From Saccoglossus kowalevskii (lineage: Eukaryota; Hemichordata; Enteropneusta; Harrimaniidae): a stretch of 49,038 nt of DNA. Of the stretch, positions 895-23,910 are shown piece after piece. The first letter of the stretch is position 1. Every line of letters begins with the position of its first letter. Where the stretch lies: assembly GCF_000003605.2 (NCBI RefSeq), contig NW_003140835.1, positions 98,645-147,682 of the forward strand, given 5' to 3'. The position numbers were made by a program, and so were the translations under genes. The notes under the pieces are model-generated. The model was not told the origin of the DNA. It worked only from the letters and a program-made list of their open reading frames with translations, and did not search any database.

Positions 895-1101
895 GTTAAT
901 ATTGTACGTGTAAGACCCTTGTTTCGCTGATTACAGATTTTTGAGTATCTGTAATTAGCGAAGCGAGCCATATATGTATTATGTATTATTATTTTCGACA
1001 TATATTTTGTAAATATTGTGCGTATAAAACCCATTTTCACTGATTACAGTTTAATTTTCATTATGTGTGTTATCCCGTTTTGTTTTGTTTCGTCGATTAC
1101 A
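895..1101. repeat. Degenerate repeats with a 'GCTGATTACAG' core
   Basis: Three diverged units: AATATTGTACGTG...TTTCGCTGATTACAG (898-936), AATATTGTGCGTA...TTTCACTGATTACAG (1012-1049) and a weaker one ending TTTCGTCGATTACA (to about 1099). The first carries the hairpin listed separately. No coding meaning seen. Confidence 0.5.
923..962. repeat. 16-bp inverted repeat (hairpin)
   Basis: TTCGCTGATTACAGAT is followed after 8 bases by ATCTGTAATTAGCGAA, a 16-bp stem with one mismatch. It could be a foldback transposon relic or the compact end structure of a non-autonomous element. Confidence 0.6.
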
Positions 1102-1435
1102 ATAAGCCACATGCAGAAAGTCAACCCTGGAATCATCCACACTTCCGAAACTTCTTTCGCATTCAGCTCCTGCCTTTTTCTGGCTTTTCTGTCCTGTATT
1201 CATGCCAAAGTCACCCTGAGCTGAACATTGCGAAATGGTATCTGATGGAATATGAATCCTGGGAAAATTTTGTGCATTGTGTATTAAACTATAAAATAAA
1301 TGATCATATCAATCAATCACAATCAATATTTCTCATCTTTCTTCATCAAACAACGAATGACACCAACAGGAGTTGCATACACAGTAACTTGTTTGAGATT
1401 ATCACACTCCACCTGAGTGCAAAAAAAGGCAGAGA

Positions 1436-1590
1436 ATGCTCGCAATAGGGGTAAGATGTTCTCAATATATGTCTGAAATAGGGGGTGTTTTTTTTCTTCA
1501 ATATGTCTGCTTTAGGGGGTACTAAATTTACACTGTGCCCGCAATAGGGGGTATGGTTTTGCAATGTTCTGCCAGCCCTAGGGGCCTATT
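1436..1590. repeat. Minisatellite-like 'AATAGGGGGT' repeats
   Basis: Five cores (GCAATAGGGGTAAG, GAAATAGGGGGTG, CTTTAGGGGGTAC, GCAATAGGGGGTATGG, CCTAGGGGCC) are spaced about 30-38 bases apart. On the minus strand they read as a repeated PYxxH peptide pattern (TPYCGHS, TPYFRHI, YPYCEHS). A degenerate minisatellite is the simplest reading. Confidence 0.55.
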
Positions 1591-1683
1591 ATTATTTAGC
1601 AAGAACGCACATGGTGTAACGTTTTAATATAGAGTGGCATCAACTTCTTGCGTTTCGCCCATCCCAGCCATTGTGATTTTGTC

Positions 1684-1752
1684 CGAACCAAATATGTGGT
1701 GATTTATCGCGTTGTGAGCCGTTGACTCATTCTATAGGAACTCACCTCTCAG
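1684..1752. repeat. 69-bp direct repeat, copy 1
   Basis: Matches 2394-2462 at all but about two positions, starting CGAACCAAATATGTGGTGAT. The copies lie 710 bases apart in the same orientation and bracket a G+C-richer non-coding stretch. The near identity implies a recent duplication or the two ends of one element. Confidence 0.8.
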
Positions 1753-2393
1753 ATTGTAGTAAGCCAAGCTGATTGAAAGAGAGCCGATTAAGTGGAATGG
1801 AATAAATCACAAGTTATTCCTCGGTGTATGTAAATAACGCCGACGTTCCATTCCAATGACCTCTCCTTGCAGAATGAACCACGCAAACACACCGTGATGG
1901 CTGCCGAATTTGGATATCGAAATGCAAAATGTTGAAAGTCCAAGTACAGACAGATTCAGTAAATACTACGACAATTGAACAATATTTTCAATGCAGATGC
2001 GGAAAACCACGAAGAAACATTCCTTGTGCGGCGCGAGCACCTGACGAGATTGCGTCCACGCTAATTGCGGATGATACACAAATTTGAATACGCGCAACCA
2101 GGTTGGCAGATGACTATATGACATGCAAAATAGTCTTGTCAATAAATACGTTGAAAATAGTTATATATCTCCTTGTACAGTATTGTTGTTCCGCAACTGC
2201 TGTGCCAGGTTAATGAACGCCGCGCTGTAGTCATTGAGACCTGGACATTCAAATCACCCCGAAATTCGAAATGACAAAACAATTATTAATATAAACTCAG
2301 AGAGTATATGAATATTTATCTACGTTGTCTGACAGTTATTGACATCGGAAAAATAGCGTTTTTTTTCCCATAATAAAGTCGATATTTTAAGTT

Positions 2394-2462
2394 CGAACCA
2401 AATATGTGGTGATTTATCGCGTTGTGAGCCGTTGACTCACTCTACAGGAACTCACCTCTCAG
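2394..2462. repeat. 69-bp direct repeat, copy 2
   Basis: Second copy of the sequence at 1684-1752, ending GGAACTCACCTCTCAG in both. The sequences flanking the two copies differ. Confidence 0.8.
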
Positions 2463-4500
2463 TATATACGGAATACTCTTTACCAAAGCCTCTTTGAACG
2501 TCACCAAGGACCGTGAACGCAAGGTCGGATTTTTGGGAGATATAAATAAAAATTACATTACATAAGTTAAATTACATGAATATTCTGAATTTTGTGAATG
2601 AAGTTCTGTCGATAAAACACGACGTTTTAAAAACACGAGTGACTTTTAAGTTTAGACGCGATTACAAAGTCTTGATTTTAGATGTTTTGCAGCAAGTCCA
2701 AAAGTATTGAGGCAAACGATTTGCAAACTCGCAAACGAATTGGCTAACTGCTTGGGTTTTGGCTTTTGAATTCTACTTGCGCCGACTTCTTGCCGCGTTC
2801 CTCTTCTGATTTTTGACAAATGGTATGCTTGATGCGCATCTTTGCAATCCATAGAGCAAGTTTTTAATTTCGCTGTCCATCCTGTTCACCTTGAGTTTTG
2901 GCACTTATCTGCCAAATATGTCACTAAATACATCTTTTCTATTTTTTTAATCAACTCCAACCTTCTGCGCCGAACACCGACGTATTTGATTTCTGCTGAA
3001 AGTCCGGAAAACAATTCCAATTGAAACTGCTTAAGTAAGTACCGCGTTTCATCCTAATCAATAAACAAATTAGTCAGCTGTACACCACGACCCGACAATT
3101 TGCCATATATGTGGGCGAAAAGGCGCTGATAAGTGTCATATCGAAAATCTGCTCATAACGTAATTGTTTATGCAGAATATATGTGAACTAACCACCCACT
3201 ACTGCATGTTTTCAAAGCGGTGTTGGTTTGCTAATTAAGTTTCTTTGGGTGGGGATTGTGTCAAGCATGGATCTTCAAGTGTGTGAATGATGTGTTGTTT
3301 GTTCATGGTATTATAATACTGGACATTACGATGTAACAAATTATCAAAAGAAATTATTCAAGTAACAGTTGTTTTCAAATAATGACATACAAACAAGTTC
3401 AAAATAAAAATGCTTTGTCATGCGTTGTATGTAATATAAAGAAGACGGCGGTGTATTGAAATGACGCAATCATCTTATCGTGGTTGGTTCCTTGCAACGT
3501 ATACAACGAAATTTTACTCGAAATTCGATCGCGCTGCTTGACGATTGAAGAGCTCAAACAGTTTCGGCTGTTCTCATGAAAGAATACAACATGTGTGATA
3601 ATAAGAGATACCTAAGTACACTGTACTGGAGTTAATATAGCGACTGAGGGGAATGGCAATATAAACTGACATGCATTGTTGCAAATATACACCATATCAT
3701 TACCTATCATCGTAGCCAGTAGGTATAACTTATTTTAAAACACAATAGCATTGTACAGGTTATGTAGAGTTGAAACAAATTTATTATTTTACGAGACTTG
3801 CTAGATTTTATTAAAGCTTAACAACACATAACTACGTTACTAACCCGACAACATTGACATGGTTCCAGCCGAACTGTGTGTCCACAGATTACCGAGCCAA
3901 ATTAATATGATGAAATGTTGCACATATAGAAATCTCAAATTCAGTTAACAAAATCAAAGAATCGGGTCAACTGACAGTCCTGACTGCGCACTTATTTGGT
4001 AAACTGTAACATTACGCTGTGGGATTCGTATTCTTTGTATGGTTTCTGTGAATAGATCAAGCTTATCATGATTTTTTTTCTAAAGACCTGTGAAACACGT
4101 GATCACCCAGCATAGGGATTCTATTTTCAGTGTTTGAAAAAAAAGTTTGAAGTTGGGCAGGCACGTAACACAAATGTAGTGTGCCACTTTCAGACTCCCG
4201 ATATAACAGTAAAAACGGCGCCTGTGCAAGTACAGGAATAATCAACATATCACGGTACTTACTGTGAGACGTGATATATATAATATAAATTTAACTCCCC
4301 CTGAAGTTAGTCCAATCTTACATATGAATTGCGACAGCGTAAATCAAAGTCCTGAACTGTTGATCTGGTAAACTGAACGGAACTGGTATTCACATTGATT
4401 AAAGGGCTGATTAATTTTAGTTTAACTGGATTAGTATGCCATCAAGCGAATGACACGAGTAGTCACGCCAACGAAAAATGAAAACATATAACTGTTTTGA
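2463..4500. other. Intergenic stretch with no supported gene
   Basis: AT-rich sequence upstream of the DED-NACHT locus. A short minus-strand frame near 2770-2870 (MDSEIKNLLYGLQRCASS, ending in arginine-rich residues) was the most protein-like item but has no splice support. No repeat ends, RNA gene or known domain seen. Confidence 0.3.
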
Positions 4501-4526
4501 TTGGTTTGGATTAAATTATTTTGAAA

Positions 4527-4535
4527 TATATAAAG
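4527..4535 (+). promoter_or_regulatory. TATA box upstream of the DED-NACHT locus
   Basis: The motif TATATAAAG lies about 170 bases before the ATG at 4702. A start about 25-30 bases downstream would leave a 5' UTR of roughly 140 bases. Position and match to the animal TATA consensus are the only support; no initiator or other element was identified. Confidence 0.4.
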
Positions 4536-4701
4536 CTGTATGTAAATAAATTTAGTATTTAAACTAAAATGCAACACTGCAGCCTAGTAGTAAAAATATA
4601 TTCTATTCCTACGCTTTATTGCAGTGAGAAAATAGTGCTTCTTGTCAGTCTGGATTCCGGCGACACAATAATTTCATATAGAGGCCTTTATTTTGAGAGT
4701 G

Positions 4702-4740
4702 ATGGGGAATACTATATCGCGTGAAGGCCAAGCTCAGGAC
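4702..4740 (+). CDS. Exon 1: N-myristoylation-type start
   Basis: Thirteen codons reading MGNTISREGQAQD and running straight into a consensus donor, GTAAGT at 4741. Gly2 followed by a small residue at position 6 (Ser) fits the N-myristoyltransferase pattern, so the product may be attached to a membrane. The exon ends in phase 0 and fits the next exon exactly. It is too short to identify by similarity; the support is the combination of Kozak-like ATGG, donor, phase and upstream TATA box. Confidence 0.5.
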
Positions 4741-4905
4741 GTAAGTAGGGAAACTATACATTGTATGAACGTTGCAGTACGTGATATATATTAAATACAT
4801 ATACAGTGACTCATGATATGACATGTTACATATTATATTCTTAAAAGAATACCATTACATAGCCAAAAACATTGCTCATTTCAAATTATGCTTCAATTAT
4901 TACAG

Positions 4906-4957
4906 AATGTTACATCAGACGGTGAAGACCTGGTCTCAATGAGAACTAATTATGTTG
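4906..4957 (+). CDS. Exon 2: short linker exon
   Basis: The acceptor is a pyrimidine/AT-rich tract ending TTACAG at 4905, and the donor is GTAGGT at 4958. The exon enters in phase 0 and leaves in phase 1, encoding NVTSDGEDLVSMRTNYV plus one base. The 165-base intron before it and the 271-base intron after it are typical of compact invertebrate introns. No domain is recognisable; the exon is polar and probably a flexible linker after the myristoylated start. Confidence 0.45.
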
Positions 4958-5228
4958 GTAGGTTTTCTATTATGTACAGTTTGTACACGTGGCGTCATTT
5001 CGTCAGCCTTTCAGTGAGCATCTTTGTCATCAAATGCGTATTTTTGTACTACACAGTGGCTATCGAGTGTGACTCCAGGCACAATCACAAACAGTTACTG
5101 CGCAAAATGTTTGAAAATTTCGGTAATATTATTTCTGATATGCAAGATATTACACATTGAATTATGTTCATTGCAGTGACTAACATCATTTTTTAACGAA
5201 TAAATCTATCACGTATTTAAACAAACAG

Positions 5229-5452
5229 ATTCGTATGGTTTACTGCACAATATTGTGGATGTGCAAGGCAGTGAATGGGAACGGATGACTCGGTTGAAAT
5301 GTGATGATGCTCAACTGAGAAGTTTGTCTCTACCGCAAATTGTTCGACTATCAGGGGCATATATATGGCTCGATTGCATAGAAAAGATGAAATCACTAGA
5401 TTCTGAAAGAGACGAAAAGAGGGATACAGTGAACATGCTAAATGAACAGCAG
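5229..5452 (+). CDS. Exon 3: alpha-helical domain of unknown family
   Basis: The acceptor is AAACAG at 5228 and the donor GTATGT at 5453. It enters in phase 1 (completing Asp) and ends in phase 0. The 75 or so residues are helix-rich, with tryptophans in SEWERM and YIWLDC and a highly charged end (DSERDEKRD) that may be coiled coil. It lies where NLR-type proteins carry an effector or linker domain. I could not place it in the DED, Death, CARD or TIR families. The phase-0 end does not match the phase-1 start of the DED exon at 6635, so something is missing between them or they are not co-spliced. Confidence 0.5.
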
Positions 5453-6634
5453 GTATGTAAATATGTAATAAATTATCTTCGTGTGACTGGCTGACTTTAA
5501 TTTGCAGTAAGTAGATTACGTTGTATTATAAAAGCATTGTTAAACGCACCAACAAGAATACAAAAATATTTGAATTCTTATCTAATACAATAGCTGATAT
5601 CAAGTTAGGCACGTGTAAAAATGATTTCATTGTTTTATATGTATTTCATATGTATTATTGTAGTTTTAAAATTAGTTACATGTTTCTAGCTTTTGATGTT
5701 TGATCAAAGTCACGTGGGCAACAGAATATATTGATCAATGACCAGGGTCTGAACCGAACATAATATGAAAATGTCGCGTTGTCTGGCTTTCCGTTCACAG
5801 ATTAAAAATTAGCCGGGTTTGTGGTGGAATGATACGTTATATTAGTGGCAGTTGTTTTCTTAAGGCCTCTTCATAAAAACGAGTTTAGTCAAAACACAAA
5901 TTTGATTGTATCACCGCCTATGCTGTGCGGATCGAAACACAATGTGTACCACAAATTTAAGATTTGGGCCTATTTCATTTTTGCCCTATTTTGCGCCACC
6001 ATGACCCCCCACAATCTCCGCAGTATTGGCTTCATTCTATAACATAATGTCATAAGCGTACTGCGGAACCATAATGTCCGATTTATCTAAACTTTCTGAG
6101 AATATATATTTAAATAACATGAAAAAAGGGAGAAAAAAGTTTGAAACATTGACAAATTGAAGACTAGTTACGCATTAGATGTGTATGGTCACCTTCGCTT
6201 AGTGGCTTGTCTTAATAATTAATAGCTCATTAAATATCATTTTCATATAATCCGTGTTGAACTAGTTACATTATATTGTCACTATTACTGTTATTTTAGT
6301 GTTGTATTCAGTATTGTTATTGTCGCCCTTTCCAACATTTCAGCTTCATTGGTTAAAGTGCCAACATAATCTTTATTTGCTTTAGCAGGATAAAATGACT
6401 TGTTTTTCGGTTGTGTTAAAAGCAAAATGTTCTCATGTATTCATGTGTTTTACCAAGCAAAAAAAAAAAAAAACACACCAAACACTGGAGAAAAATGTTC
6501 ATGCACAAATTCCGAAACGAATTAGAAGAGCATTTCTTTTTTAAGCCGATGATACATAATGCTTACGGCACATACATATATTCCTTTTAAAAAATGTAAT
6601 TTAATATGAACCACGTTTACATAGTCACCTACAG

Positions 6635-6898
6635 AAATACCACCATTAAGAGTACTATTCAAAACAATCGCTGACGGTTTGAGTCCAGAGGAACTGAAGA
6701 CCATAAAGAATCTTTTAATCGATAGTATTCTACTACGAAAAGACGAGAAGAAATACGAGGATGCACTTAGTTTATTTATTTATTTAGAGACGAATGGAAG
6801 CATCGATGCTGGCAACTTAGGTTTACTTGAAGTGCTGCTAACTAATATTAAACGCCCCCTGCTAATTGATGAAATAAATAAGTTTAAGAATGACTATG
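6635..6898 (+). CDS. Death-effector domain (DED) exon
   Basis: A symmetrical phase 1-1 exon of 264 bases, acceptor CTACAG at 6634 and donor GTAAGT at 6899. Translation has the DED pattern: a first helix around LRVLFKTIADGLSPEELKTI, then LFIYLETNG with the conserved Leu and Gly, SIDAGNLGLLEVLL, and a last helix ending INKFKND. DEDs pair with other DEDs, as in FADD and caspase-8, to build death or inflammatory complexes in the cytoplasm. The usual RxDLL charge motif reads KRPLL here, so the Asp is replaced by Pro. Its closest match in this window is the minus-strand DED at 17887-18178. The symmetric phase makes it a shuffle-ready module. Confidence 0.75.
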
Positions 6899-7277
6899 GT
6901 AAGTTTAATTTTCTCAAATGTCATACAACGATTATCGGATTGTTTCCAAAATACAGGTTTCATTATAATTATTTGTACTTCTTTTTCTTTTACAATTATG
7001 ACCAAAAGTCGCAAACTTACAAGCGATTGCAAATATTAACTGCCTCAGTTGAAGACCAGATATTTCTAAACAATAAAACTCAGTATATTGACTTTGGTAT
7101 TTCTACCACAGTCAGCTTGCGTACAAGTGATAATAAAATGCGAATATTTTCCGATATTTACTATTTCGGAGCAGTCATCTTTAATAAGACTTGAAACCAA
7201 AACTCAGTAGTCAATCTGAGAATGAATAAATTTAGGCCATGTCCATGCACATTTGCATAATAACTATTTCATTTCAG

Positions 7278-7331
7278 CCTGTGTAAGCAAAAACCACTGC
7301 AAACGAGCTCTCATAGCACAATTTCATGTAG
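7278..7331 (+). CDS. Candidate small exon between DED and pre-NACHT exons
   Basis: A 54-base phase 1-1 segment with a good acceptor (CATTTCAG at 7277) and a weaker donor (GTATAT at 7332). It would insert CVSKNHCKRALIAQFHV without breaking the frame between the DED exon and the exon at 10571. Because that flanking join is also legal without it, this is optional and may be a chance match. A partial look-alike of the acceptor region recurs near 9840-9895 but there runs into a stop after a few codons. Confidence 0.25.
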
Positions 7332-7600
7332 GTATATTTTCATTTACAATTGAAACCGGCAGATTTTGGGGATAGAGAAGTTTATTAAAGAAAATTGGCA
7401 AAATGAAGTCGCAGTTGAATCTCATTTTTATTTTACCGCTCTGAATATACGGAAAGGGCGCTTAATTTTGTTTCAAGCATGTTTTAAGTAAATATAATGT
7501 TTTGAATCTTTACATTGTTCAGAAACTATTTGTATATTAAAAACAACATTAGCTAAATGTCAGTTATAATCGTTGTAAAAATGCGTAGCAAATCGCTCAG

Positions 7601-7800
7601 ACTGTCGACATTTCTCGTGCCTAATGTAATTGCGTTTCCTAGACATTCGAACGCCGATGGCGTATGATTGAAAATGCGAAACTATTTCACACGAGGGCCT
7701 TTAGTCCCGAGAGACTGTCCCTGTCTGCAGGTTTCTAGTTGATATGAATAATTAATTCATAGTTGATGCAGAAGTCATGTTATATTAACATAATGCATGC
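7601..7800. repeat. Dispersed 200-bp repeat, copy A
   Basis: Aligns over about 200 bases with 39287-39486 in the same orientation, including GCCTAATGTAATTG, CCGAGAGA, TGTCTGCAGGTTTCTAGT and ACATAATG. Divergence is moderate with small indels. It lies inside the large intron of the DED-NACHT gene. Probably a non-autonomous transposon; ends not defined. Confidence 0.65.
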
Positions 7801-7801
7801 A

Positions 7802-10510
7802 ATTTTTTTCTAAATGACCCATTGAATGCGTTTGTTGTTCATGTCAAGATTTGTTTGTTACAAGATAACAAAATCTGCCGTGGAAAGTGTCGCGATCGCA
7901 TATAGTAAGTAGGCGTGGCGATCCTAGTAGCCGGCGACCCCTGACCCTTTTCACGATTGGCCACGATACAATTTGTAAATGGCCACTATGACACTTCTAC
8001 GGCACTGATATTACTAGTGTATGTGCTGTTGCTAGACCCATGTCAAACTTGTTCGTTTTGTGACGATATCAATTCTCTATTTTTGGTGAATATGAATGTG
8101 TTATTTTTGATAAGAAACATTGTTATTTTCGACTTTTCTGAAAACTTCACTGTAGCTCTGTCATATCGTATATTTGAACATATCGTGATAATTTCTTTAA
8201 TTCTTTATTTTTGACGAATATTTTCTGTCATTTGTAGAAACAAATGTTATTTACGACTTCTTCTTTGAAACTACCAGCTCGATTGCTTTGATACTTGGTA
8301 TGTAGGTACATTGTGTAGCCCTCTGTCAGATTTGTTTATTTAAAGACAATAACCATTGGCTACGACAATGTTCTTGTAGGACACTGGAGCTATTTCGACC
8401 ATTAGGTCGCTTGTTTGATATTCTGACGCACACATATGGACAGTACAAACCTTCAGACACTATTCAACAATTCAACAATATTGACATTCTACATTTTTTT
8501 CCTGAGTTACTAAGACATGAGTACTGTATCATGTCAAATTGGCAATATATTCATTATTGTTGAGAAGAGATGCGGTCGATGACCTGATGTATGATATATA
8601 TGTTGTTTAAACTTGATTGGTTCAGGCTCTCTATGACTCTTCTAGAGCTGCATTTGTTTGAACAAGATGATCACCAGTCAGCCATTTTGATTTTGATAGT
8701 GGAAAAAATGCATGCGTGTTTGTACGATATGCCTGATATACGTGTGAGTTTTAAAATTGATCAGTCTGTCGAATATATAGTTCGGGAATTGTATTTCTTG
8801 AAACAAAATGCCACAACTACGGCAATCGTAAAAAAAGAAAAAATGACTTTAGACTATTGTTTTTTAAAATGAAAACAATCCTTGGAAATTTTGTTTTAGA
8901 AATCAATTTCAGAAACAAAAATTGTGATTAAAATAAGATTATAAATTCAAAATTTAAATGGATTGTAAAAATGGTTATATAAGATGTTTACTAAAATGTG
9001 TTGCCGTACCCAAGTCGGCCATTTGGAATTCGACCCAGAAACAAAAAGAAGTGCATCAAGAACCCATCCTGTTCCGTTGGTGATAATATGATACCTTGAT
9101 GTATTCTTTTGCCTTAAAATGGCTGTCATTCAACCATTGTGAATCGAGTCAGTAAATAAATGCATGGACTTACGTCCGATATTGTGTCTGGGCTGAATAA
9201 GGATTGACCGAAGCACGCGCGCATAAGTTTGATAAGTTCTGTTATGTATGTACCACGAACGGGTGGCCAACGTCATACAACACAATTTTATTAGAACATT
9301 AATGTGTTTTTTATTTGTTTTACACCTCCCCGAAAAACAAGATTGCCTGAGAAAGAAGCAAAGATTACCCAAAAAATCGGGTAAGTGAACAATCATTCTA
9401 GTTAATCAATGTATGCTACTCAGTGTAATGTTCAGTTCTTCAAATTCCCGTTATAAAAGACTTAACATGTTCTTGTAAATTACATTGTTAACATTTTGTT
9501 GCATATTTATTTATTATGTTTTCCTTCTGCGTATGCAAAGCACGCACATTGATTGCGTCTGTGTGTCTGTGTGAACAAGTAAGCCAAACTGCAGCGCTGA
9601 TTTTGATACAGTAGGTACCTTAGCGTATATGCATTCATGATTAGTGTTTGGTCCACATCAATGCATATTAAGTAGTAATTTGCATATAATTTTTTCTCAT
9701 TTCTCGTTTTTGTAATAAGTAGCTAATTTGCTTCACAATTTTCTTATTTCACTTTGAGTAGACAATTGCTCAAACATTTCTGATCGAATCCTGATCAAAT
9801 ATACATACATGCTTAGGTTTTAGCGTCATATCCATGGATATTGGGCAGCTAATTTGCATATTATTTTTCTCTTTTTAGCCTGTGTAAACAAAAACTAAAA
9901 CAAAAAATGGAGCAAATATTGGTTAAATTGGTACCTAGTCGTGAGGTTATGTAATAACAAGACTATTCTTCGTAACATGCTTGTGTTTTCTTCACTGACT
10001 ATTTGAATTTCCAGATATAAAACATCACTAATTGCTTATATTCTGTATTCACGCGGGAGCATTACCGTATATAATTTGGAGTTCAGTAATTTACACGGTG
10101 GCCAGAAAACTTGGTCATTATTGTATGAGGGAAATGCTCAGTGTCTATAACATAGTAGAATTTTTGTTATTATCCGTTAGCATAATATTGATTCTTACTC
10201 GCAATGAGTCACATAAAATGAAGTTCAAAAGTGTTTGTATACCTTCTTCTTGTAAAAATTATTTCCATATAGTTCCTATGCTAGACGTTGTTTAGGTTTC
10301 ATGATATAAAAACGTTGTAGGAGATGCATGCCAGTAATGTAAACATTACATATGCATAAATATATTACATTAAAGAAATACCGACCATGAACATGTCCCA
10401 AATTAGTAATGCACTATATGAAAATTACTATTGTTGAAACGACTGGAACAACCGAAAATTCAATGGTGAATGCATAATATTTTTAGGATTTACACTGACC
10501 TGCGTTGATC
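7802..10510. other. Large intron with old repeats
   Basis: Lies between the DED side (7331 or 6898) and the pre-NACHT exon. No credible exon found. At 9672, 9721 and 9848 there are three look-alike blocks, each beginning TAATTTGC and followed by a T-rich tract. The last ends in an acceptor-like TTTTTAGCCTGTG that mimics the acceptor at 7277. Confidence 0.35.
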
Positions 10511-10513
10511 TCG

Positions 10514-10535
10514 TATATATATATATATATATATT
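10514..10535. repeat. (AT)n microsatellite
   Basis: About eleven AT units, a little upstream of the pre-NACHT exon acceptor. Confidence 0.9.
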
Positions 10536-10570
10536 TATGTATAAGAGCTCTATGAACTTGTTAGTTTCAG

Positions 10571-10712
10571 ATGTCACCATTCAAATAGCAAAGGGGGAAG
10601 CGAAGACACATTATCAACATAAAACCGGAAGGTTGAAGCTTGTTCCTTGGGCGACATATAGTGTTAAGCAAATGGATTTTTATATACAACCTAACCTTAC
10701 TACCACTAACCA
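10571..10712 (+). CDS. Pre-NACHT exon
   Basis: The acceptor is TAGTTTCAG at 10570 and the donor GTGAGT at 10713; it enters in phase 1 and leaves in phase 2. The translation begins DVTIQIAKGEAKTHYQ and continues to MDFYIQPNLTTTN. A stretch with basic residues, a Tyr/Trp-containing middle and a hydrophobic-acidic end just before NACHT is the common form of the region preceding invertebrate NACHT domains. It joins the NACHT exon in perfect phase across an 87-base intron, giving NQPLRLWHIFGSLEERK at the junction. That junction strongly supports both exons being one gene. Confidence 0.7.
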
Positions 10713-10799
10713 GTGAGTTTATAATGAAATACTACACAAGTTCAAGGCAATTCTTGTACAATATCAACATAACTACATATTCAAAATGTTTAATTGCAG

Positions 10800-11781
10800 G
10801 CCCTTGAGATTATGGCATATTTTTGGATCATTAGAAGAAAGAAAACAGAACAAACGAATACACGTTGAGGGCGATGTTGGAGTCGGAAAAAGTATGCTGT
10901 GTTTAAAATTGGTTTCTGATTGGTCAACTGATCCTTGTCCTGATTACATTCAGCATTTTATTATCGTAATACTAATTGAGGCCAAAAATGTATCACGGGG
11001 TGTAACAACACTGAAAGATATGGTAAAACAATCGGCAATATTTTCAAAAGATTCAAAACTACGGAAAGACGAATATTACAATGAATTTTGGCAATGGATC
11101 GTTGACAATCAGGACCAGGTTTTGTTAATAATTGATGGATGGGATGAATTTCGCCCTGAAGTAATAAATGAAAGTAGTGATTTAAATGATTTGACGAATG
11201 ATAGCATGTTACGTGACTTGTGTGTCATAGTAACAAGCAAAAATATAATCAAAAAGCCTGGAAATTTTGACTTAGAATTAACTATCACAGGGTTCACTCC
11301 GGAAAATTCTTGTAAATTTGTCACGAAATATTTCAACAAGTTTCCAGACAAGAAAAAAGAAAATATGGTGTTGGAATCACTAAATAATGAGCAAGCGTAT
11401 CAAGACATTGCAAAAGATCCATTTGAAGTGGTGGTGCTTTGCATATGGTTTCATGATGATGAACTTATAAAAAAAACGAAATTTTATGAATATTATATAA
11501 ATTGCATTGTTAGAAGATTTAGTGAAAAAAAATTAGTAAGTGAAGAAAAGTGCAAGAAGTTTGTAGAAATATTAGGGAACATCGCCAGGAAAGGAACTGA
11601 GGACAATGTCACACATTTTAAAAAAGGAGATATACTTAAATTGTGCAACGACGAGAAGATATTTTTAATGGGAATTTTAATCAGTAAAACATTGTACCGT
11701 GATGAATCTGATTATAATGTTAGATATAAATTCGTTCATGAAACTCAGAAGTATTTTGCAGATAAATACAAATACACTTAA
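10800..11781 (+). CDS. NACHT NTPase terminal exon
   Basis: A single 327-codon exon, acceptor TAATTGCAG at 10799, stop TAA at 11779. The P-loop GDVGVGKS (10870-10893) and Walker B LLIIDGWDEF (to about 11151) are intact. A sensor-like strand LCVIVTSK follows, with Ser-Lys in place of the usual Thr-Arg or Ser-Arg. After that come the winged-helix region and the closing HETQKYFADKY, which resembles the HxxxQEYFAA motif of NLRs. NACHT domains bind ATP or dATP and drive oligomerisation. The protein ends here with no LRR, unlike classical NLRs, so ligand sensing must reside elsewhere. The catalytic motifs look functional and the frame is clean, so this appears to be a live gene rather than a fossil. 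Confidence 0.88.
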
Positions 11782-11793
11782 TGTTAAAAGCTT

Positions 11794-11937
11794 ATGACAA
11801 CATCAACATATTCTGAAATTTACAAATATTTTGAAAAAGGATACCGGAGGAGACAGCCTAATCCCCGAATCCCTGACGTCAACGGGAAGCTGTTCAACAT
11901 CCCCGCAGAATGTCTCAATATGAAATATAGAAATTGA
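11794..11937 (+). CDS. Small open frame just after the NACHT stop
   Basis: A 47-codon frame starting MTTSTYSEIYKYFEKG and ending LNMKYRN, in the same frame as the NACHT exon but separated from it by two stops within 12 bases. Its base composition is clearly richer in G+C than its surroundings, and the peptide is basic and proline-containing, so it could be a former C-terminal extension or part of an alternative last exon. It may equally be 3' UTR. No family recognised. Confidence 0.25.
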   Translation: MTTSTYSEIYKYFEKGYRRRQPNPRIPDVNGKLFNIPAECLNMKYRN

Positions 11938-12143
11938 ATATTACACAGTAAAATGACAGACTAGGAGATATTGCTGCAATGTTTTTTATAGACTGTAATT
12001 TACGGATGTTTCTTGATAATTATTAAGTATTTGTTTAAGCTACTGAGCGTTTTTGATTGGATTTTTGTTTTGGATTCGATATCTGAAAATGATTGGAGTA
12101 TTTAGGCCAACCAAAGAGCCAATCTAAAAATATATACCGTTTG

Positions 12144-12149
12144 AATAAA
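12144..12149 (+). terminator. Polyadenylation signal of the DED-NACHT gene
   Basis: AATAAA about 360 bases after the NACHT stop codon, a usual distance for an animal 3' UTR. Earlier copies of the hexamer were not noticed between the stop and this site. The call rests on position and motif only. Confidence 0.35.
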
Positions 12150-12688
12150 AGAATAGCCGAATTAGTCCTAGATTTCTCATGTTCTGCTCGTGTATATTGA
12201 ATACTACGTAAAATCCTTCGAAAATTATCTTATTCAAACTGTGCTTATGCATTTATATTGGTTATTTGGTTGGCCAATAAACACAACAAATTGGAAATAC
12301 AATGTGGTACTTGCAGCTAATTCATTCAGTGTAAGTAGTCATGTATACAAAGTTAGCTTCATTTTGAGATTTTAACCTTTTAAGGTAATGTTAAATACCG
12401 TTTGATAATCAAAGAAAAGACTCGCTCATTTTATATTTTTGTTTTCACTACAGTTTGAAATATTTGTTTTCAAAAGAACGAGTTCATTTATCCTGTGCTG
12501 TCATTTCTTTTCTTATTCATACGGCATGTAAACACATTCTCAGCGTTGTAATCAATCCTTATCTGTCTAACTATGTTATGCAACCTGGAAGCAGTTTTTT
12601 AATGATCATTGTAATTGTTCTGTTTTACGCAGAAAATCGCATTTTCATTTGTAATATTGTATCTGAATTTCGAATGTAGTAGTTAATA

Positions 12689-12855
12689 TTTAAAGCGGGA
12701 AGGTCGTCACCTGTGCACGCAAGGGAACGGAGTCCCAAGCGATGATTACAACACACGCTAAAAACGCAAAGGCTTATTGATGGACGATTGTTTGTAAATA
12801 ATGTCACGCTATGACCATCTGACGCATTCGCAGGTGACGACTCCCCCGCTTTAAA
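12689..12855. mobile_element. MITE with 27-bp inverted ends, TTAA-type flanks
   Basis: A 167-base element whose ends are inverted copies: the left reads TTTAAAGCGGGAAGGTCGTC and the right, reversed, TTTAAAGCGGGGGAGTCGTC, matching on to CACCTG. TTAA sits at both outer edges and may be the target-site duplication, as for piggyBac-type elements; the palindromic TTTAAA makes the exact border ambiguous. The interior has no coding capacity, so it is non-autonomous. The good match between the ends suggests a relatively young insertion. It lies about 900 bases downstream of the NACHT gene stop. Confidence 0.75.
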
Positions 12856-15800
12856 GTGTACATAGCATGGGAGGGGCTGGGTGTGTGTTGCGTCAGTGTC
12901 AGCGAAATGGATTAATTGAATAATTGTATTTGTAAAAATAATAATGTAAAAACTCTTAATGCATCATAGTTTATATAGTACAGCTTTTAAAAAATGAATA
13001 AACCAATTCGTTCACAACAAATATTTTAACTACAACCAATTAGTCTGTTTATTTAGAACATTTTCAGTAGTAGTACATGTTACTCTAATCGTCATAGGAA
13101 AAGAATAAAAGATAAACAATGGTCACTTTTAAGTATTTAGACGATATCTGGAAAGTCAACCGTAAGTGGTGTAGACAATTAATTGTAATACCACCAAATG
13201 TTACTAGTGAAGCAGTGGTTTTGTGAGTGTACTACGGATAACAAATGATCTCTGTATGAGTACATGTGATCGATATATGTAGTGGAGTGCTGCATGATAG
13301 ACATCAAAATGTAACGTTATTGGAGCGCTGTATTTGTCGTGGCTTTATTTATTCTGATTCTAAATACGCACCATTCCTCTTCATTCACCAGTAATTCTTA
13401 GTGGTAAGAAATCATTTTTACATGAGCATTGCCGCGTTTCGGAGATGTCGTAATGATGATTTGTTAATCAAATTTTTATGTTTGAGAAATGACCGAGCAA
13501 TGGCGAGCACGCCGTTGTCGTACAGGTGACCTATATTCATTATGAATGACCTTCTTTTACGAGTGAGTTGGCGGTTATATTCGTAATAGTAGTCAAGCAG
13601 TCAACTAACCGCGTCACACCTGAAGCTGTATGATAAGTTGCATTAATAACTAAACATGCAACTGAAGTAATATATACGTGTATATCTGAATGAAATATGA
13701 TTGTTGAACTTGATGTTCTTAAAATCACACGATATATTAATATGCATTGACAGGACATGGTATTGCAAATAAGGATTCGCCAGCTAGCTTCGAATAAACG
13801 TTCATGAATGGTCAATGTTATGGTTTTCTGTGAAATTTTAGCTAACTCCTCAGTAAACTTATGAATCAAGATATGTATATAACATGAAAATTTTAGGTAA
13901 AATCGCATTTTCGCACTAATAGATCTAATAGGTCTTCTCAATGGCAGTGTGGCAATCTAGTTTCGTCTTTTACCCGCAAGTGTAAAATGTATTCTGGTGT
14001 GTTTATACACCCACAGCATTGTCCATCTTCCTTGTAAATAACAAATGAACCGTTAATTTCTATTCAATACATAAATATTTCTCATCGTCAGTAAAACTGT
14101 AACCTCAACTTTTTTTTTAATTTGAAACATTTGTTTACGTTTTCAAATACCACACATTTTCAAAAACGTCGTGTTTGAAACATATTGCCGATGGCGGACG
14201 CCAATATTAATTGTTATGTGCTTAGCTCAGTGACATAATATTCATTTTGTTTTCAACGCTTTACCTCGTAAAGTCATGGTGTGCAACGTGTTTATTACCG
14301 ACCATTGGAACAACCTGATAACAATTAAGGCTATTCAATTGATTCCCTCTCGTGAGACTGTGCCCCGATCTTGACCTTTGACACTTAGTGCTGTACCTAG
14401 GATTGTTTGCCAATGGTTGATATGTTAATATAGTTGAATACGGTGGGATAACTTGACTGAATTTCAAACTGTGATCCGTGTGTAATCTGTGTAATGTAAA
14501 TTACCAAATTATACTATTTTGTCAACCTCCCAATTAGTCTTTACTATTCATGACGTATGGTCTACGACTTCCCAAAGGCGATTAGAATGTGGAACTAGTC
14601 ACGACGACGACGCAGTTCCATGCAACTGATATATGTGGATATATTTGTATAAATATGGTTTGCTTATGTTATATAGTCGACAGTTATGTTATCAACATTT
14701 CTGTCACACACCTATTTAGTTTCCGCTTTTCTGGTAAATATTACCCCCATTTTCGCTTCCACAAATATATCAGCTAATTAACACTTAATACTTCAAGTTG
14801 CTTATTTAGAAAAAAAAAATCCTTCCTAGAATTTTTTTTATGGTAACTGTACGACAAAAGTCAACCAAACATGTACGAGATATTGGCGAGGATACCTAAT
14901 GTGAAAACATTACGCGTGCATATGAGAAATAGGCCATAATTACAACATGCTGCGTTTGATGCCCAGTTTTTTATATTAATATAATTTAGTAATATATGTC
15001 CAATTTTATTCGATCAAAAAGTATGTTTCCAACTTGAGCTAATATAATAGGGGCAATAAAATCTGTTTGAAATGCTGTAAAAATTCCGAATGTAGTGAAT
15101 TAAGGTAGAGATAAAGGTTCGTGAGCACCACGGAGTGAATTTGTTTTTTGCTTTTTATTATCCAAACAGTCTTGGCTATAGACTGTTAAAATTGTGAATA
15201 GTGGAACATACTTAAAAAACGATTTTAAAATATAGATAACAGGTGCAAACATTCTCTCTTTTGAATGCTTAGCAAGAATTAGCAAGGCTGTACATAAATA
15301 ATAAAAAGGAAACATAGTGACAAAAAGAAATGACGGGAACTCCATATTATGCACTATATTTAACTTTTAACAAAACGATGACACCACTTAAATTTGGAAC
15401 TGTTACAGCCATTTTAATTATGAGCATTAGCAAACTTCTTACTGAGTGAATTGTTATGCAAATTAACAATTATCTCAGCTTCTTTTTAGTGTACATCCCA
15501 GAACTTATGCAAAAAATAGCTCACAGACGCTTCGACCTTTTGTTTTGAAATTTTCACAAATGATTGACAATGTGTTTATCTTCAAAATGTCGTCGGGGTA
15601 TTGTTTTTGGTTGAACAGTGTTACAACAATCGTACAGACAACTAGCCTGGGTGTTAATTTATGTATAAACTTGAAGTGGTGAAATTTGGGCTGCTGTCCT
15701 GCAAAATTGACAACTGATAGACAGTTTTCAAGACAGCACTTTCTTTATAGTAAACACATGTACCCATAAACCAATTTTGACAGGAAACAGAAGCATGGTT

Positions 15801-16060
15801 TAGGAGCTAATTTTTTTAAAATCACTTTTGACCAAAAAAGCACATTTTTGTTTTCAAACTACAGTGTCTTTTAAAAAAATACTAACAAAATGTTAAAATC
15901 CATACAATAAGCTTTCCGAAAATATATAGTTTTGTGGACAAGGGAGGTCATCTTGGTTTCCTAATTAACTAATTAAAATACCTGCCAGGTAAACTACATG
16001 TCTATCTTAAGGCCGGTATTGTTCGCATTTGTGTGGTGTCATTGCTAGCACCGTTGACGC
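12856..16060. other. Intergenic, no supported gene
   Basis: AT-rich sequence between the MITE and the repeat block at 16.08 kb. A 133-codon minus-strand frame (13941-13540) has no domain, splice support or protein-like composition. No inverted ends or RNA gene seen. Confidence 0.3.
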
Positions 16061-16079
16061 AATATACGCTATATAATAT

Positions 16080-16173
16080 AATTAAACCAATTTTATCGCC
16101 AGTCTATTCAACCTCACAAACGACACTGCGTAGTTTTGACCTACCACCCCGGAGTTAAATCTAGGACAGACCA
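16080..16173. repeat. Dispersed repeat, copy A
   Basis: Aligns with 21511-21607, sharing AATTAAACCAAT, TTATCGCC, TTGACCTA and GACAGACCA, with about one base in five changed. It is followed at 16330-16780 by sequence matching the 24-30 kb array, so both repeats were probably parts of one larger element. Confidence 0.6.
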
Positions 16174-16329
16174 TAGTTTACAATCAACAATTGTCAACAA
16201 TTGTCAATCAACAATTGTCAACAATCATCCTACTCTACATATGGCACACGCCTTATCTCATTTTGAGTCATTCAGCTGCCCTCAGTATACCCAAATTTGC
16301 GCCACTGACAATTTAACTTACGTGACCTT

Positions 16330-16780
16330 AGTAAAGTAGGAGCGCTATCAGCTGACCTTGCCCTAATATCAATACGTTGCGCTGTACTTATGCTATCAGT
16401 TGGCATGTAATCAATAAATTAGACCTTTACAGACATATTGTGTTGAACAGTTTCCATGACAACTTAATAAATGATCAACATTAGATGATCTACAACGGTG
16501 TTTGTGACAATCCAGCGGGTTGAACCACCTGCAAGTCTTACCTCAAAAGATATTTTCGGACTTTTTCTGAAAATTTACAACCAATTTGCCAAACAAATTA
16601 GTAAAATCACACAACCCTTTGACAGACGTTGGCACAGCGTACATTGGAATGAAGCAAAATATACCATGGCGAGATCATACAGAGGTGCAGTAGCTATGCT
16701 TGTATAAAAACATTTGTACTTTGAACGGATTGTATTGAAAATTATAGACGGTACAGACAGCTTGTACTCCGATGTCGACA
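16330..16780. repeat. Isolated copy of the 24-30 kb array unit
   Basis: Shares with the array CCCTAATATCAATACGTTGC, TGTGTTGAACAGTTTCCATG, AATAAATGATCAACA, TTGTACTTTGAACGGATTG and ATAGACGGTACAG, in the same order and strand. The copy stands alone about 7 kb before the array. Confidence 0.7.
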
Positions 16781-17433
16781 TCTTGAAAATATCTAGAATG
16801 TTTTGTTATATAAATACTTACTCGCATACTTTGCGTACACACAAGTCCTGTTTCTTATTTTAGTTTTATTCCAGATATTTAACATGTTGTTTCATGGATT
16901 ATTACCACACAGAAAACTATAGAAAACATGATGTGACTGCTTAACAATTACTAAATGCGATGCTAGTATGAATATGTTTGTTTATTGGAGACTGGGGTAA
17001 ATGGCGGGCAAAAATTCGACTTATTTAGTGAGATGTTAAAGGCAATGAATTATCGACGAAAATATATAAACTATTATTAAATATTTGATTATCTTGTATC
17101 AATGTGCAAAATATATTTTAAACTTTGAGTAGGGACGTTATATGAATTCAATATAATTATATTTGCGTTCATAAACTAGTGGAGCTATAACACAATAAAC
17201 GAGACCTGAAATTTACAGGGTTAGATCACTGTGTTTTCAAACAATCGAAAACTATGATTGTAATGTTACTGCCACTGTACACAGCGAGAATCTGATTTTA
17301 AATTACAATGATCGCACTCGTGTTGCAAATATTTTGAATTATTAAGTTTGCTTGTTATTTTTTCCATTTCTGTAATTCAACTGCCAGGTTTCCTTTCCCA
17401 ATATCGAATAACAGTTGATACAGATATGATGTA

Positions 17434-17552
17434 TTATTGATGGTTATAACTTTCCCACAAATCGTTAAATACATCGTATGCTGATTGATGGAGTTCTATT
17501 TTTGCCTCTGGGATCTTATCAGCACAGCGCTGCTTTAATGATCTCAGGTTTT
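17434..17552 (-). CDS. Last exon of the small DED protein
   Basis: Acceptor with a T-rich tract ending TTATTACAG before 17552, phase 1 entry, stop TAA at 17436-17434. It encodes ENLRSLKQRCADKIPEAK followed by a helical end closing WESYNHQ. Together the three exons give a protein of about 180 residues: one DED, a linker and a short helical tail, without NACHT, caspase or LRR parts. DED-only proteins such as PEA-15 and FADD-type adaptors act by pairing with other DEDs. An adaptor or decoy role toward the neighbouring DED-NACHT protein is therefore plausible, but inferred. Confidence 0.6.
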
Positions 17553-17695
17553 CTGTAATAAAATAAAATTGTTATTTTTACTAGCATATTATTTAAAATT
17601 GTAACACATTTGCAATATTATACACTATTCTATAAATAGAATATGTTCTTATTTCACCTCAATAATTTGCCAAACATGCTATAATCAGAACTCAC

Positions 17696-17824
17696 CCTTG
17701 CCAATTTTGTCACTAAAATCACAAAGCAGTTTATTAAACTGTCCTACGAGGTCCGTGCAACTCCCTGATACAGCAGAAGAGCCGCTTGTTTCACCACGTT
17801 CTAATTCCGGCTTTCCATAGGAAC
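17696..17824 (-). CDS. Middle exon of the small DED protein
   Basis: Acceptor TTTTACAG just before 17824 and donor GTGAGT at 17695. Only phase 1-1 is free of stops, reading GSYGKPELERGETSGSS and on to FNKLLCDFSDKIGKG. The first half is polar and Ser/Gly-rich (a linker); the second is amphipathic and probably helical. Phase and frame join the last exon exactly. No known domain recognised. Confidence 0.6.
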
Positions 17825-17886
17825 CTGTAAAATAGTATTGTTATACATTGTGACAAATACGTAGTTATGAATGCATTTTGCTGAAC

Positions 17887-18178
17887 TATATGCATTCTGA
17901 ATAAATAAAATATCTTGCTTGAAGGCTTGTACCTTCTCCAATAATGGCCCCCGGTTCAATAATTCTAAAATATCTTCTAGTAATTCTAGCTTTGTTTCGG
18001 AAATATGACCTGCTGTTTTGAGACTGATGAATATGGCAAATCCAGTATCATGATTCTTTTCGTCCGCTCTATTCAAGTACTCGTCGTATAGGTACATTCT
18101 CACATTGTACACTTCCCCTGGTCCAAAGCAGTCGCCAATGCTTTTCAAAAATTTCCCAAATTGCAGTTTGGCGGTCAT
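17887..18178 (-). CDS. DED exon of a small DED protein
   Basis: The frame opens at ATG 18178 with MTAKLQFGKFLKSIGDCFG and reads a full DED: first helix FLKSIGDCF, FAIFISLKTAG with the conserved Leu and Gly, HISETKLELLEDILELL, and a last helix ending VQAFKQD. The charge motif RxDLL reads RGPLL, the same Asp-to-Pro change as in the plus-strand DED. The start could instead be internal, since an acceptor-like TTCCAG lies 12 bases before the ATG and could join an upstream exon. The donor is uncertain: phase requires an end after one base of a codon, and the only GT that fits is a weak GTTCAG after 17887. The frame also reads on through to about 17801, so intron retention is possible. Confidence 0.7.
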
Positions 18179-18189
18179 TATAACTCCAC

Positions 18190-21100
18190 TGGAATGTAAT
18201 CATGTTATAAAGAAATAAGCCGACGAAAAAACAGATAAATTAATGGATGGATGGATTGGCGGTTAGCATTTTGGCTATTAGTGTGATGTTTGATGGAAGA
18301 ATATTGAATATTTTGTGGGAAAACAAGGATTCTGTTATTGAGATGACTGTTTGTGTACCTTGTGATATGGACATAGATAGAATGTAGTATGAGTGCGATG
18401 CGTCGGTTCCTTCAATATATATCTTATGATAAATCAATGTAATTTCATACCTAAATGCTTTGTGAAAAGCGACAGTTAGAACCTGTTCTCTTTAAATCTA
18501 TGCATAATATTATAGCAACGTAATATTTATAATACTTTTATAATACTACAATTATATGTGATTTTTCTGTTAATTATGTATGATTTTGGATAATCTGCAG
18601 CCGCAAGTCCTCATAATTTATTTCCATTCAAATCTTTGCAATTAGATTTATAAAGTCTTCGTCACCTCAATCGTGGTTCCCTGATCCGTTCTACTGCTCA
18701 CTGTACAAAACAAATCAAATATGCTACACGCGTTGATTAGTGTGCAAAACGAAATAGAATGTCTTACTTGACACGACGTATAAATAAGGGCATTTCCAAA
18801 ACCCAAATATTTCAGCGATCGTTAGCACTCATACAAACAATTGCAATATATTTACGTAGTAACTAACATATAGATTGCTGACCTGGACACACACAGACCA
18901 ATATATGGCGACGCGTACTTTAACCTGCTGTTACTGTGTACGTGTGTTTGTTTGTTTGTTTGTTTTCGCTTTCGGTATGGTCTATTTTTAGAAGAAGGCT
19001 TATGGCGATGTTGTACCATTTGTATGGCGGACAAAGGGCCGTTTATTATAGTTATATGAAATTACGATATAAGCAGTATCCGATTATGCAAGGATATTAA
19101 ACATGTATCTACGATATCGGTATCTGTATTACTTGGTCGCAGTAGTTTGCATATGAAGCGTTACCCCTGACTAACTGGAAAACCGACCAGCCTCTATGAA
19201 ACGCGAGAACTCTTGATAATGACTGTCGAAATAAACTGAATAGTCGAACAGTGCACGATTGAATATATATAACAAAATGTATTTAACAAAATTATATGCG
19301 CTTTTTACGTCGTGTAAAACAAGACCTGTTAATGAGGTACATAGACGGGCACCCAGTTTTTCTTCACGTCGATGCTGGTTCAGATAAGGCGATAATAAGA
19401 ATATGATCTTCATGACAGACCCAGTACGCCGAAATTGTATCATATGTGACCTCTAGGAAAATTCCGCACAGTGCTGCATTGATTGATGGTGATTTTCATT
19501 TCAAGCGAATTCCAAAATTATGATGAAATTAAAGCCATGCAATACTTACAAAATAATATAAACGCAACAGGAAAAACGGTATTTTTGAAGAAGGAACTTG
19601 CCGGGATGAAACGGTGTACATGAAGGTGTAAAACTAACTCTTTCGTGATCACGAGTATCAGACTTTATACTCTGTTTTTATGGCATATTGCCAATTCTGT
19701 GATTCATAAATTCATAAACCAACCAACCAACAACTATGCGAGCATTAGAATTTTGAGCGAACGATTGACAGGGTTAGTGGCGGCGTTTTGTAATTAACCA
19801 CGGGCCAAGAAGGAACAACGACCAGCATGAGCATGTGAACTTTGAGCACTTTGATAACATGCACTATATTGTTATAAAATGGAGGTTACGTGCATGTAAA
19901 ACAAATCTAACGATGATTACGATGAACCGTTTGTTCTCAGGCGGATTCTAAACCAGTCATTCATATTCAGAGTGTTATTACTATAGTTATTAACATGCTA
20001 AGGATAATTGGCACAGACTGTTGCATATTTTGTAAACCGCTAATGTAAATCAGACATTTCATATGGGTGACAAAGAGACGGAGTTCATTTTCAAATACTG
20101 AAATAGTTGGTCAAGCTTTGTATTCAAATTGAAAACTAATTAACTAATGGACCCTCCCAGTAAAAACACGCCTATAAATAATTATTTTGATTGACAAGTA
20201 GTTTGATGGCAACACCAATCAGCAAGTGACAACAGTGCTCCGTTGCCAACATCAGTAAAAGTGGTCAAGCCATCACAGCGAATACGTCATTGGTCACATT
20301 TATTTCTTGCTGATTGTATCTTTTAGTTAGATACCCATAGCTTGGCTCAGTAGTTTGAACGTTCACACAACTGAAAACAAACAATTGCTTGTTAAAGTCA
20401 ACTGTATTAGGCCTTGCTTCCAGAAAGACATTTAGTTTGTCTATGTGCGTATCACGAACGAGGGTTCACAGATGAATTTTACCGTTAGCCTTGTTTTAGT
20501 GATTGGAACGCGAAACAAAAACTAATATAATCCTTATGAATCGACTAATTAAATCACACTAGTTATACGGTCTTCTTGGTAAACATTCGTATGTTCAATT
20601 TGGCTGTAAATAATTCGCATCGAAATTGTGATTTCGTCATCATAAGAGCAGAACTTCTTCCACAATAGCTTTAAATAAATGTTATTTGCAAAAAATTTTC
20701 AGTTGTCGGTGTCGTCAAATTAAAAAAAAAAAATGTTTCAGTTTTCCCTATCGATTTGAAAGTGTAGCCTTTCTTATATTTTACGCGACTGATAGGCGAT
20801 GTATTATCTGTCAATTATACGACTTTTCATTGGCAGGTTCACAGTATGACGTATGACGAATATAATTTGCATCGTGTTTGTTATCACATCCAAACAATCG
20901 CATATGATGACCACATAAATACAAGACAGTTTAGTTGTTAACTCAATGCAACCAGTCTCATAAATTTTCTTGGAAAATTGATTGTTTAGAATAAAATCTT
21001 GAGTGTTCCTAAAATGTGTATTTTGTGGTACACATTTTACGCAAACACGCGTTGTATTGTAAAACGTATGCAAATGCAGTGGAAACTTTTCTTTCTGATT

Positions 21101-22973: not shown

Positions 22974-23910
22974 ATATTTTGACAAGAGGAGAAAGAATCA
23001 CTATAATGATTTATTGTTGTTGTTATTATTGTTTATTATTGTTGGCACATGATGGGTAAGATTAGTCGATACAAAGCTATGATTTTTCAGTAATAAATAA
23101 TGACTTGACAGTTTCGATGACTGGTCGCCCCCATTTTCAGCAGAAGGATGCACATGTTTGGCCACGTATGATGATCACGCGCGATCATTATATACAATGA
23201 TTACAGTGTTTATTTCTGGCCACTAACTTTGCCTTGCCTTCTCGAGATTGGTAGTCGTGTCAAGCTGTGCTATATCGTGTAAGTCTGTTTCTTTTATGTC
23301 GGAGAGAGAGAGTGGAGGGGGATTTTGGCAACAGTGAGTCATGAATACAGGCAGTCCCAACTGGCTTTACACCACGGAACATAATTATAACAAAATACCA
23401 GGCAGTGCGTGTCCCCTATTTCAATTAACTACGAATGTCGAACACTAAGTACATCGTGAAAACAAGATAATAAAACAAAATCAACCAAAATGTAGTCTTT
23501 CAGCGTCGAAAAGTTTTGGTTGTGTCAAATAGCACGTATATAATTAACAGTTGGAATTTCGTCTCAACAGGGGTTTATGTGTTAACTTTTGGACTTTGCA
23601 TTGTATTAATGATGCAATATGGGTAACACGCAATGTATGTTGGCATGTGATGTCAGTACGAGTTAAGCAAATGTCAATTAAAGGACAACACAGGTGTTTT
23701 ACCTTTCAATGTGACCTATTTCGTGTGTGGATAGAAGAAATAAAAGTCATCTAGTAATTTACGTTTCTATTACGTGTTCTCGAGCGATTGAACCCAAGAT
23801 TTAGATTCTTGCAGCCACGTCACTGTTTTAACCTGATAATTTCTCATATCTCTCACTTATGGTTTCGATATAGACTGAACAGCACTTCTAACAAACATAC
23901 GATTGCTATT

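Follow-up and report, generated by a model that had tools for sequence, protein, structure and literature searches.

A DED-NACHT gene without LRRs and a probably broken tandem-DED neighbour in Saccoglossus kowalevskii

Do a gene encoding a DED fused to a NACHT and a small DED gene lying opposite to it form a receptor with its own adaptor or decoy? This question is raised by a stretch of Saccoglossus kowalevskii DNA (49,038 nucleotides, called the window here) which corresponds to bases 98645-147682 of contig C3184 in the genome searched (572 Mb, 4830 contigs). Gene A occupies 6635-11781 of the forward strand and gene B, convergent to it, 18178-17434 of the reverse strand, 5.65 kb away. In an earlier note, made from the sequence alone, the two were compared with a receptor and its FLIP-like or PEA-15-like partner. 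It is held here, with a confidence a little above even, that gene A is an LRR-less DED-NACHT gene of the animal NLR/STAND kind, that gene B is a decayed or truncated tandem-DED gene, and that their proximity comes from the local clustering of DED genes and not from a dedicated pairing. Caspase, DED, Death and NACHT matches in the genome indicate an animal origin of the sequence.

Gene A is predicted to comprise three exons bounded by AG acceptors and GT donors in compatible phases (1 and 2), and a check of splicing and frame over these exons gave 461 codons without a stop. The first exon (6635..6898) encodes a complete DED, which matches the Pfam profile PF01335 with 52 bits (E 8.4e-14), above the curated cut-off of 35.9 bits, and was found in the genome-wide profile search at C3184:105293-105535. 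This exon is symmetrical, with a phase-1 acceptor and a phase-1 donor (ATG/GTAAGT). The structure model of the DED, calculated from a two-row alignment, contains six helices, with a predicted local distance difference test score (pLDDT) of 76.8 and a predicted template modelling score (pTM) of 0.60. The structure-based search, which covered the DED of gene A, found the DEDs of FADD and of caspase-8/cFLIP to be the closest folds (best E 6.1e-4, TMq at most 0.86), and all of the best 50 rows are titled as DEDs of FADD, caspase-8, cFLIP or PEA-15. The second exon (10571..10712, donor CCA/GTGAGT) is a pre-NACHT linker joining the DED and NACHT exons in frame; it matches only weakly (E 0.72) the open frame that precedes the NACHT of locus L002. 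Scored against all GTs of the strand, the donors of gene A rank in the top 0.2% and the top 2.3%.

The last exon (10800..11781) holds the NACHT (PF05729, E 5.8e-16) with an intact P-loop, GDVGVGKS, and Walker B motif, LLIIDGWDEF, followed by the helical part, the winged-helix end FVHETQKYFADKYKYT and a stop. The NACHT aligns to NLRC4 (2e-8) over chain residues 172-457, up to the end of the winged helix, and the histidine of the NLRC4 FxH motif, which we take to be an ADP contact, is aligned in the winged helix of gene A. By predicted splicing gene A thus has an N-terminal death-fold effector, as NLRs do, with the DED exon in phase with the NACHT. In these respects the earlier note was right: the DED at 6635, the intact NACHT in the exon ending at 11781 and the compatible phases all hold, the last by way of the extra exon 10571-10712. 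Its statement that the gene ends without LRRs holds too. No LRR family was detected by Pfam in 87 forward-strand open frames (at least 30 codons) of 6899-19500, downstream as well as intronic, and tblastn of eight NLR pieces gave no clear LRR match past gene A; downstream LRR exons were rejected on both grounds.

The opposite-strand DED gene, placed earlier at about 5.6 kb, is real as well, and its content differs from what had been proposed. Exon 1 of gene B (17887..18178) contains an ATG and a complete first DED (39.1 bits against the cut-off of 35.9, E 9.2e-10); its 3' end is uncertain, and the frame stays open to 17804. Exon 2 (17696..17824, donor AGG/GTGAGT) carries a linker and the start of a second DED, and exon 3 (17434..17552) adds further helices of this domain before an early stop. 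Together exons 2 and 3 encode positions 1-46 of the 82 of the DED profile (E 8.8e-8; with 32.7 bits below the cut-off when taken alone). The rest of the second DED (17358..17453, profile 45-69, E 0.0012) lies directly downstream in another frame, 17495-17358, which ranks fourth among 2438 open frames. By itself this frameshifted end has no Pfam match; tblastn with the second DED of a relative on contig C3396 recovers both pieces, at 55% and 40% identity, with a joint E of 9e-9 in a 401-base search and 5e-7 in the whole window. From the second DED piece, its remainder in the other frame and the tblastn recovery of both it follows that gene B is, as its sequence is read, a tandem-DED gene interrupted by a frameshift, and no product with two intact DEDs is encoded by it.

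The C3396 relative has its first DED in one open exon, a second-DED exon that starts after helix 1 and a stop right after the second DED, the order of the domains being that of gene B. Its helix-1 exon of the second DED was not located; of 3979 bases taken downstream, 1108 are masked. This relative keeps both DED exons open, which suggests that the tandem-DED layout is viable and makes gene B look decayed or truncated; gene B is therefore probably a broken tandem-DED gene. The protein of about 180 residues described earlier (179 aa in the present model) depends on a donor at 17887, ATA/GTTCAG, which is equalled or bettered by 84% of the GTs of the same strand. As judged by eye, a phase-1 GT donor lies within 75 nt past the DED in 7 of 10 same-group genes, and the position of gene B homologous to the C3396 donor has no GT, with a weak one a few bases further. 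Other introns were tried in 36 in-frame models, four of them GT-AG, and none was judged to have two good sites. What stands of the DED-only protein is its DED and the lack of any visible enzyme domain; its donor is weak, and its tail is a second DED, frameshifted.

A second DED in the gene A intron or elsewhere in the window was also considered and rejected, as in a profile search of the 2438 open frames (at least 14 codons) only the four pieces of genes A and B had E below 0.7. No DED was seen by Pfam in 122 frames of at least 28 codons (reverse strand 11800-17433, forward strand 1-6634) nor in the 87 frames mentioned above. The 122-frame scan missed the frameshifted end of gene B because that frame crosses 17433.

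How closely the two genes are related was judged from scores and from a tree. By phmmer the DED of gene A ranks C3396 first, then C2347, C232, C3434 and C2269, with gene B sixth (48.4 bits with the first DED of C3396, 40.3 with gene B), and the first DED of gene B scores best with that of C3396 (42.1 bits) and second best with gene A (41.1). For the tree 45 DED stretches were assembled from the 30 best genome loci, 10 further places (mostly full-length matches) and the window, and 43 of them were used, the second-DED fragment of gene B and one 26-residue piece having been dropped; about half of the 87 genome DED matches lie outside it. Genes A and B fall into a 12-row group of single-exon DEDs (support 92/81), called DED1-type here. 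An 18-row group (84/86), called NLR/DED2-type, takes in those NACHT-linked DEDs that were sampled (C359, C1938, C2396) and also the second DED of C3396. Within the tree gene B stands with the first DED of C3396 (89/85) and gene A with C232 (87/52), and in 3% of the 200 bootstrap trees a branch separates A and B from all the others. The paralogy proposed earlier is thus right in the broad sense of one 12-row group and not upheld in the sense of nearest relatives; that the two DEDs are closest to each other is contradicted by the scores, with small margins, and by the tree, with moderate support. Greater closeness to other DEDs had been named in the earlier note as evidence against its own reading. 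The two genes thus seem to be related members of one subfamily and not a pair apart, though the margins are small.

None of the nine other contigs of the 12-row group has a NACHT match, and one of them carries a tandem-DED gene; 6 of the 18 rows of the other group are on NACHT contigs. Gene A therefore carries a DED class found otherwise on contigs without a NACHT match, and the other sampled NACHT-linked DEDs are in another group. The E/D-RxDL charge motif is described as a DED feature in PMC4558505, and its Asp is absent from both DEDs of the window. This Asp is present in 2 of 12 DED1-type and 11 of 18 NLR/DED2-type rows (Fisher p 0.026, calculated post hoc on related rows); the motif varies among the DEDs of this genome and so does not decide DED membership. 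At one DED1-type locus (C655:156-161 kb, reverse strand, L031/L065) two frames lie downstream of the exon: one is Gln/Ser-rich, possibly coiled-coil and without a family match, the other has 544 aa and weakly matches a GDSL hydrolase (7.8e-4).

The neighbourhood has to be seen against a DED-rich genome. At least 87 DED matches (52 above the cut-off) and at least 17 NACHT matches (PF05729, 14 above the cut-off) were counted, both numbers being lower bounds. Some low-scoring DED matches are other death folds: the one at C3162:216 kb is PYRIN by Pfam, a C689 row groups with it, and that on C1736 is also matched by Death. The C3162 locus (216008-216469, forward strand, L058) is one open frame with two PYRIN-like domains (PF02758, 1.4e-16, two stretches), and in the tree it is joined by L057 (C3162) and L059 (C689); PYD is usually called vertebrate-specific. 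A DED lies just upstream of a NACHT on the same strand on C359 (three places, two of them with a weak DED), C1938 and C2396, and is confirmed by Pfam at C359:270 kb, C1938 and C2396. In the C2396 locus (42.7-44.0 kb, reverse strand, L034) a single open frame of 451 aa carries a DED together with part of a NACHT (profile 19-92); the NACHT stretch is apparently repeated there, and no LRR is matched. At C5:361120-361371 (forward strand, L053) a DED is followed in the same frame by the start of an AAA_16/NB-ARC-like NTPase, like a DED version of Apaf-1.

Counting same-strand matches separated by less than 3 kb as one gives 77 DED genes; 21 of these have a neighbouring DED gene within 12 kb, where uniform placement would lead one to expect 0.25. 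Since DED genes often cluster in this way, the linkage of A and B needs no functional pairing. Six clustered DED matches above the cut-off, five of them on one strand, are found at C129:186-206 kb. Among the at least 17 NACHT matches, those on C3184 (with gene B), C598 and C359:147 kb have a separate DED match within 12 kb. On C598 the NACHT at 31565 (forward) and the DED at 40483 (reverse) are convergent and 8.5 kb apart, with no DED in about 11 kb upstream of the NACHT; at C359:147 kb three further same-strand DEDs are 3.8-7.0 kb away; at C359:262 and 270 kb the neighbouring DEDs belong to each other's NACHT genes. The 20 kb preceding the window contain no DED or NACHT. This proximity of NACHT and DED genes is in line with local DED clustering.

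The 30 caspase matches are spread over 14 contigs and the DED matches over 55 others, which leaves no visible target here for a FLIP-like action on caspase-8. The likeness of gene B to FLIP, closer than the earlier note could tell, extends to two DEDs and no visible enzyme; its second DED is frameshifted, and no caspase occurs on the DED contigs. A DED with a Death domain 2.8 kb downstream on the same strand (C4134:38262-41551, reverse) looks like FADD, a name given from the domain order only.

How such a protein could work is suggested by its parts. Gene A would provide a DED and a NACHT core of nucleotide-binding, helical and winged-helix parts, after which it stops. Exchange of ADP for ATP would open the NACHT into an oligomer and bring the DEDs together, so that DED assemblies might be seeded or capped. 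The oligomer would present DED1-type domains. Lacking a sensor, gene A would not serve as a receptor of patterns but would help, amplify or restrain DED assemblies, much as LRR-less NLRP10 is reported to do with the tandem DED of caspase-8. Gene B would be a copy, since decayed, of a tandem-DED gene built like FLIP short and belonging to the same DED group, left near gene A by local multiplication and clustering of DED genes.

Several observations weigh against this account, and those on the two ends of gene A are considered first. The DED exon has no in-frame ATG, whereas an upstream Met in the same open frame occurs in all 10 same-group DED exons examined; either a start exon lies further upstream, then, or the start of gene A has been lost. 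At the other end the gene stops right after the winged helix, where several paralogues continue for hundreds of residues: the open frames of NACHT relatives on C290, C359 (two), C3634, C598 and C3059 measure 618-1191 aa, and in all five relatives where the winged-helix motif could be placed the frame runs past it. Beyond two stops an open stretch of 49 codons (11788..11934) continues in the NACHT frame, and the tblastn alignment of one C359 NLR runs on weakly into it. This stretch has no Pfam family and no PDB match, and a PAZ-like reading made by eye was rejected for the absence of both. With no visible start codon, gene A may also be a relic, and it could be claimed that both genes are, gene A having lost its start codon and C-terminal part as a second decaying pseudogene. 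This is considered unlikely: the 461 codons run through three exons without a stop, the P-loop and Walker B are intact and both donors rank high among GTs. As an acceptor precedes the DED exon, the start may lie in an exon further upstream, and shorter NACHT frames exist elsewhere in the genome (C1276 432 aa, C2396 451 aa). Two further reservations concern the NACHT part. The structure model of the NACHT exon, made from a single sequence, is too poor for use (pLDDT 33). LRRs are rarely recognisable in the scanned paralogues (above the Pfam cut-off on C290 only, just below it on C3634 and C3059, whereas the parts scanned of both C359 relatives and of C598 show none at E 0.1), and the absence of LRRs from gene A is thus less unusual than it sounds.

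The remaining reservations concern the relation of the two genes. The frameshift of gene B may have arisen in assembly. Neither DED of the window is confined to a small set by a starred branch of the tree, the 12- and 18-row branches being unstarred; the support of the forks is moderate, the branch of gene B is long, and by raw identity the DED most like that of gene A is one from C129 (40% over 83 columns). DED genes near NACHT genes (C3184, C598, C359:147 kb) exceed the uniform expectation, which functional linkage would predict as well. A rival reading is a dedicated pair, in which gene B would regulate gene A in the manner of FLIP, its tandem DED serving as adaptor or decoy for the DED of gene A; the frameshift would then be an artefact of assembly, or the shortened product would still work. 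The two genes share one DED group, converge at 5.65 kb, and A is second best for B by phmmer, one bit behind. It is the viable layout of the C3396 relative, with both DED exons open, and the second convergent NACHT/DED arrangement on C598 (8.5 kb) that keep a small probability for such a pair. It is nevertheless quite unlikely, as A and B are not nearest relatives, gene B has both a frameshift and a donor weaker than most GTs, and DED genes cluster generally; the special receptor-adaptor or receptor-decoy pairing of the earlier note could not be sustained on these grounds. That gene B through its lesions yields a short decoy, either the first DED with a short tail (125 aa from the ATG, exon 1 read through) or the first DED with part of the second (179 aa), is hardly to be expected: the first DED is intact, with its own ATG and a frame open to 17804, which would suit a decoy, but two lesions relative to C3396 are more simply read as decay.

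DED-NACHT proteins are on record for amphioxus, there with cDNA, for sea urchin and for Nematostella (PMC2575513), and gene A resembles these NLRs, compared by description only, in having the DED directly on the NACHT within an expanded innate immune family; it differs in ending after the winged helix and in a DED of the DED1-type group. In coral 379 NBD loci without repeats were reported against 117 with repeats; DED is one of their N-terminal domains, which may have been shuffled, and some loci occur in pairs or triplets (PMC4083563). The coral NACHT/NB-ARC loci without repeats are like gene A in this, again by description only. NLRP10, an NLR which also has no LRR, is described as binding the tandem DED of caspase-8 and reducing its recruitment (PMC11492288); unlike gene A it is found among PYD-containing NLRPs, and in the present genome caspase and DED matches never share a contig. 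Gene B and its C3396 relative resemble c-FLIP short and tandem-DED proteins (PMC4558505) in having two DEDs and no visible enzyme domain; gene B is frameshifted, the RxDL Asp is absent from the DEDs of the window, and the sequence match to c-FLIP is weak (E 0.14). PEA-15, a small DED protein, is the best PDB match of the 179-aa model of gene B (E about 0.01), with a single DED as against two. DEDs grafted by exon gain onto lophotrochozoan RIG-I-like receptors (PMC8998645) offer another exon-borne DED on an immune sensor, that sensor being a helicase and not a NACHT protein. In the titles and abstract openings that were listed, no DED-NACHT gene linked to a tandem-DED gene is named.

Elsewhere in the window, diverged direct repeats lie in 23889-30157 (many copies 1.2-3.4 kb apart) and 33744-35517 (about 0.4-0.7 kb apart), and a weak endonuclease-reverse transcriptase match (PF14529, 0.0049) at 32545-33024 on the reverse strand is probably a retroelement remnant. 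No relatives were confirmed on viral contigs, and Rfam and tRNA searches found nothing.

Gene A belongs to the known DED-NACHT type, with a mild twist of effector exchange. It is conceivable, at a rather low probability, that its N-terminal DED was exchanged for a DED1-type module without the RxDL Asp on a phase 1-1 exon, that this module would dock onto tandem-DED filaments and not onto the partner of other NLRs, and that the convergent DED genes on C3184 and C598 form a cis-linked module of NLR and DED regulator. The tempting story of a receptor with its decoy is corrected in any case: the small gene is probably a tandem-DED gene that has been damaged, and its surroundings are typical for a genome rich in DEDs. 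If the effector exchange were true, this genome, with 52 DEDs above the cut-off, at least 17 NACHT matches, a FADD-like DED/Death pair and no caspase on DED contigs, would be a natural test of how the NLRs of invertebrates are rewired to DED adaptors where no DED caspase is visible.

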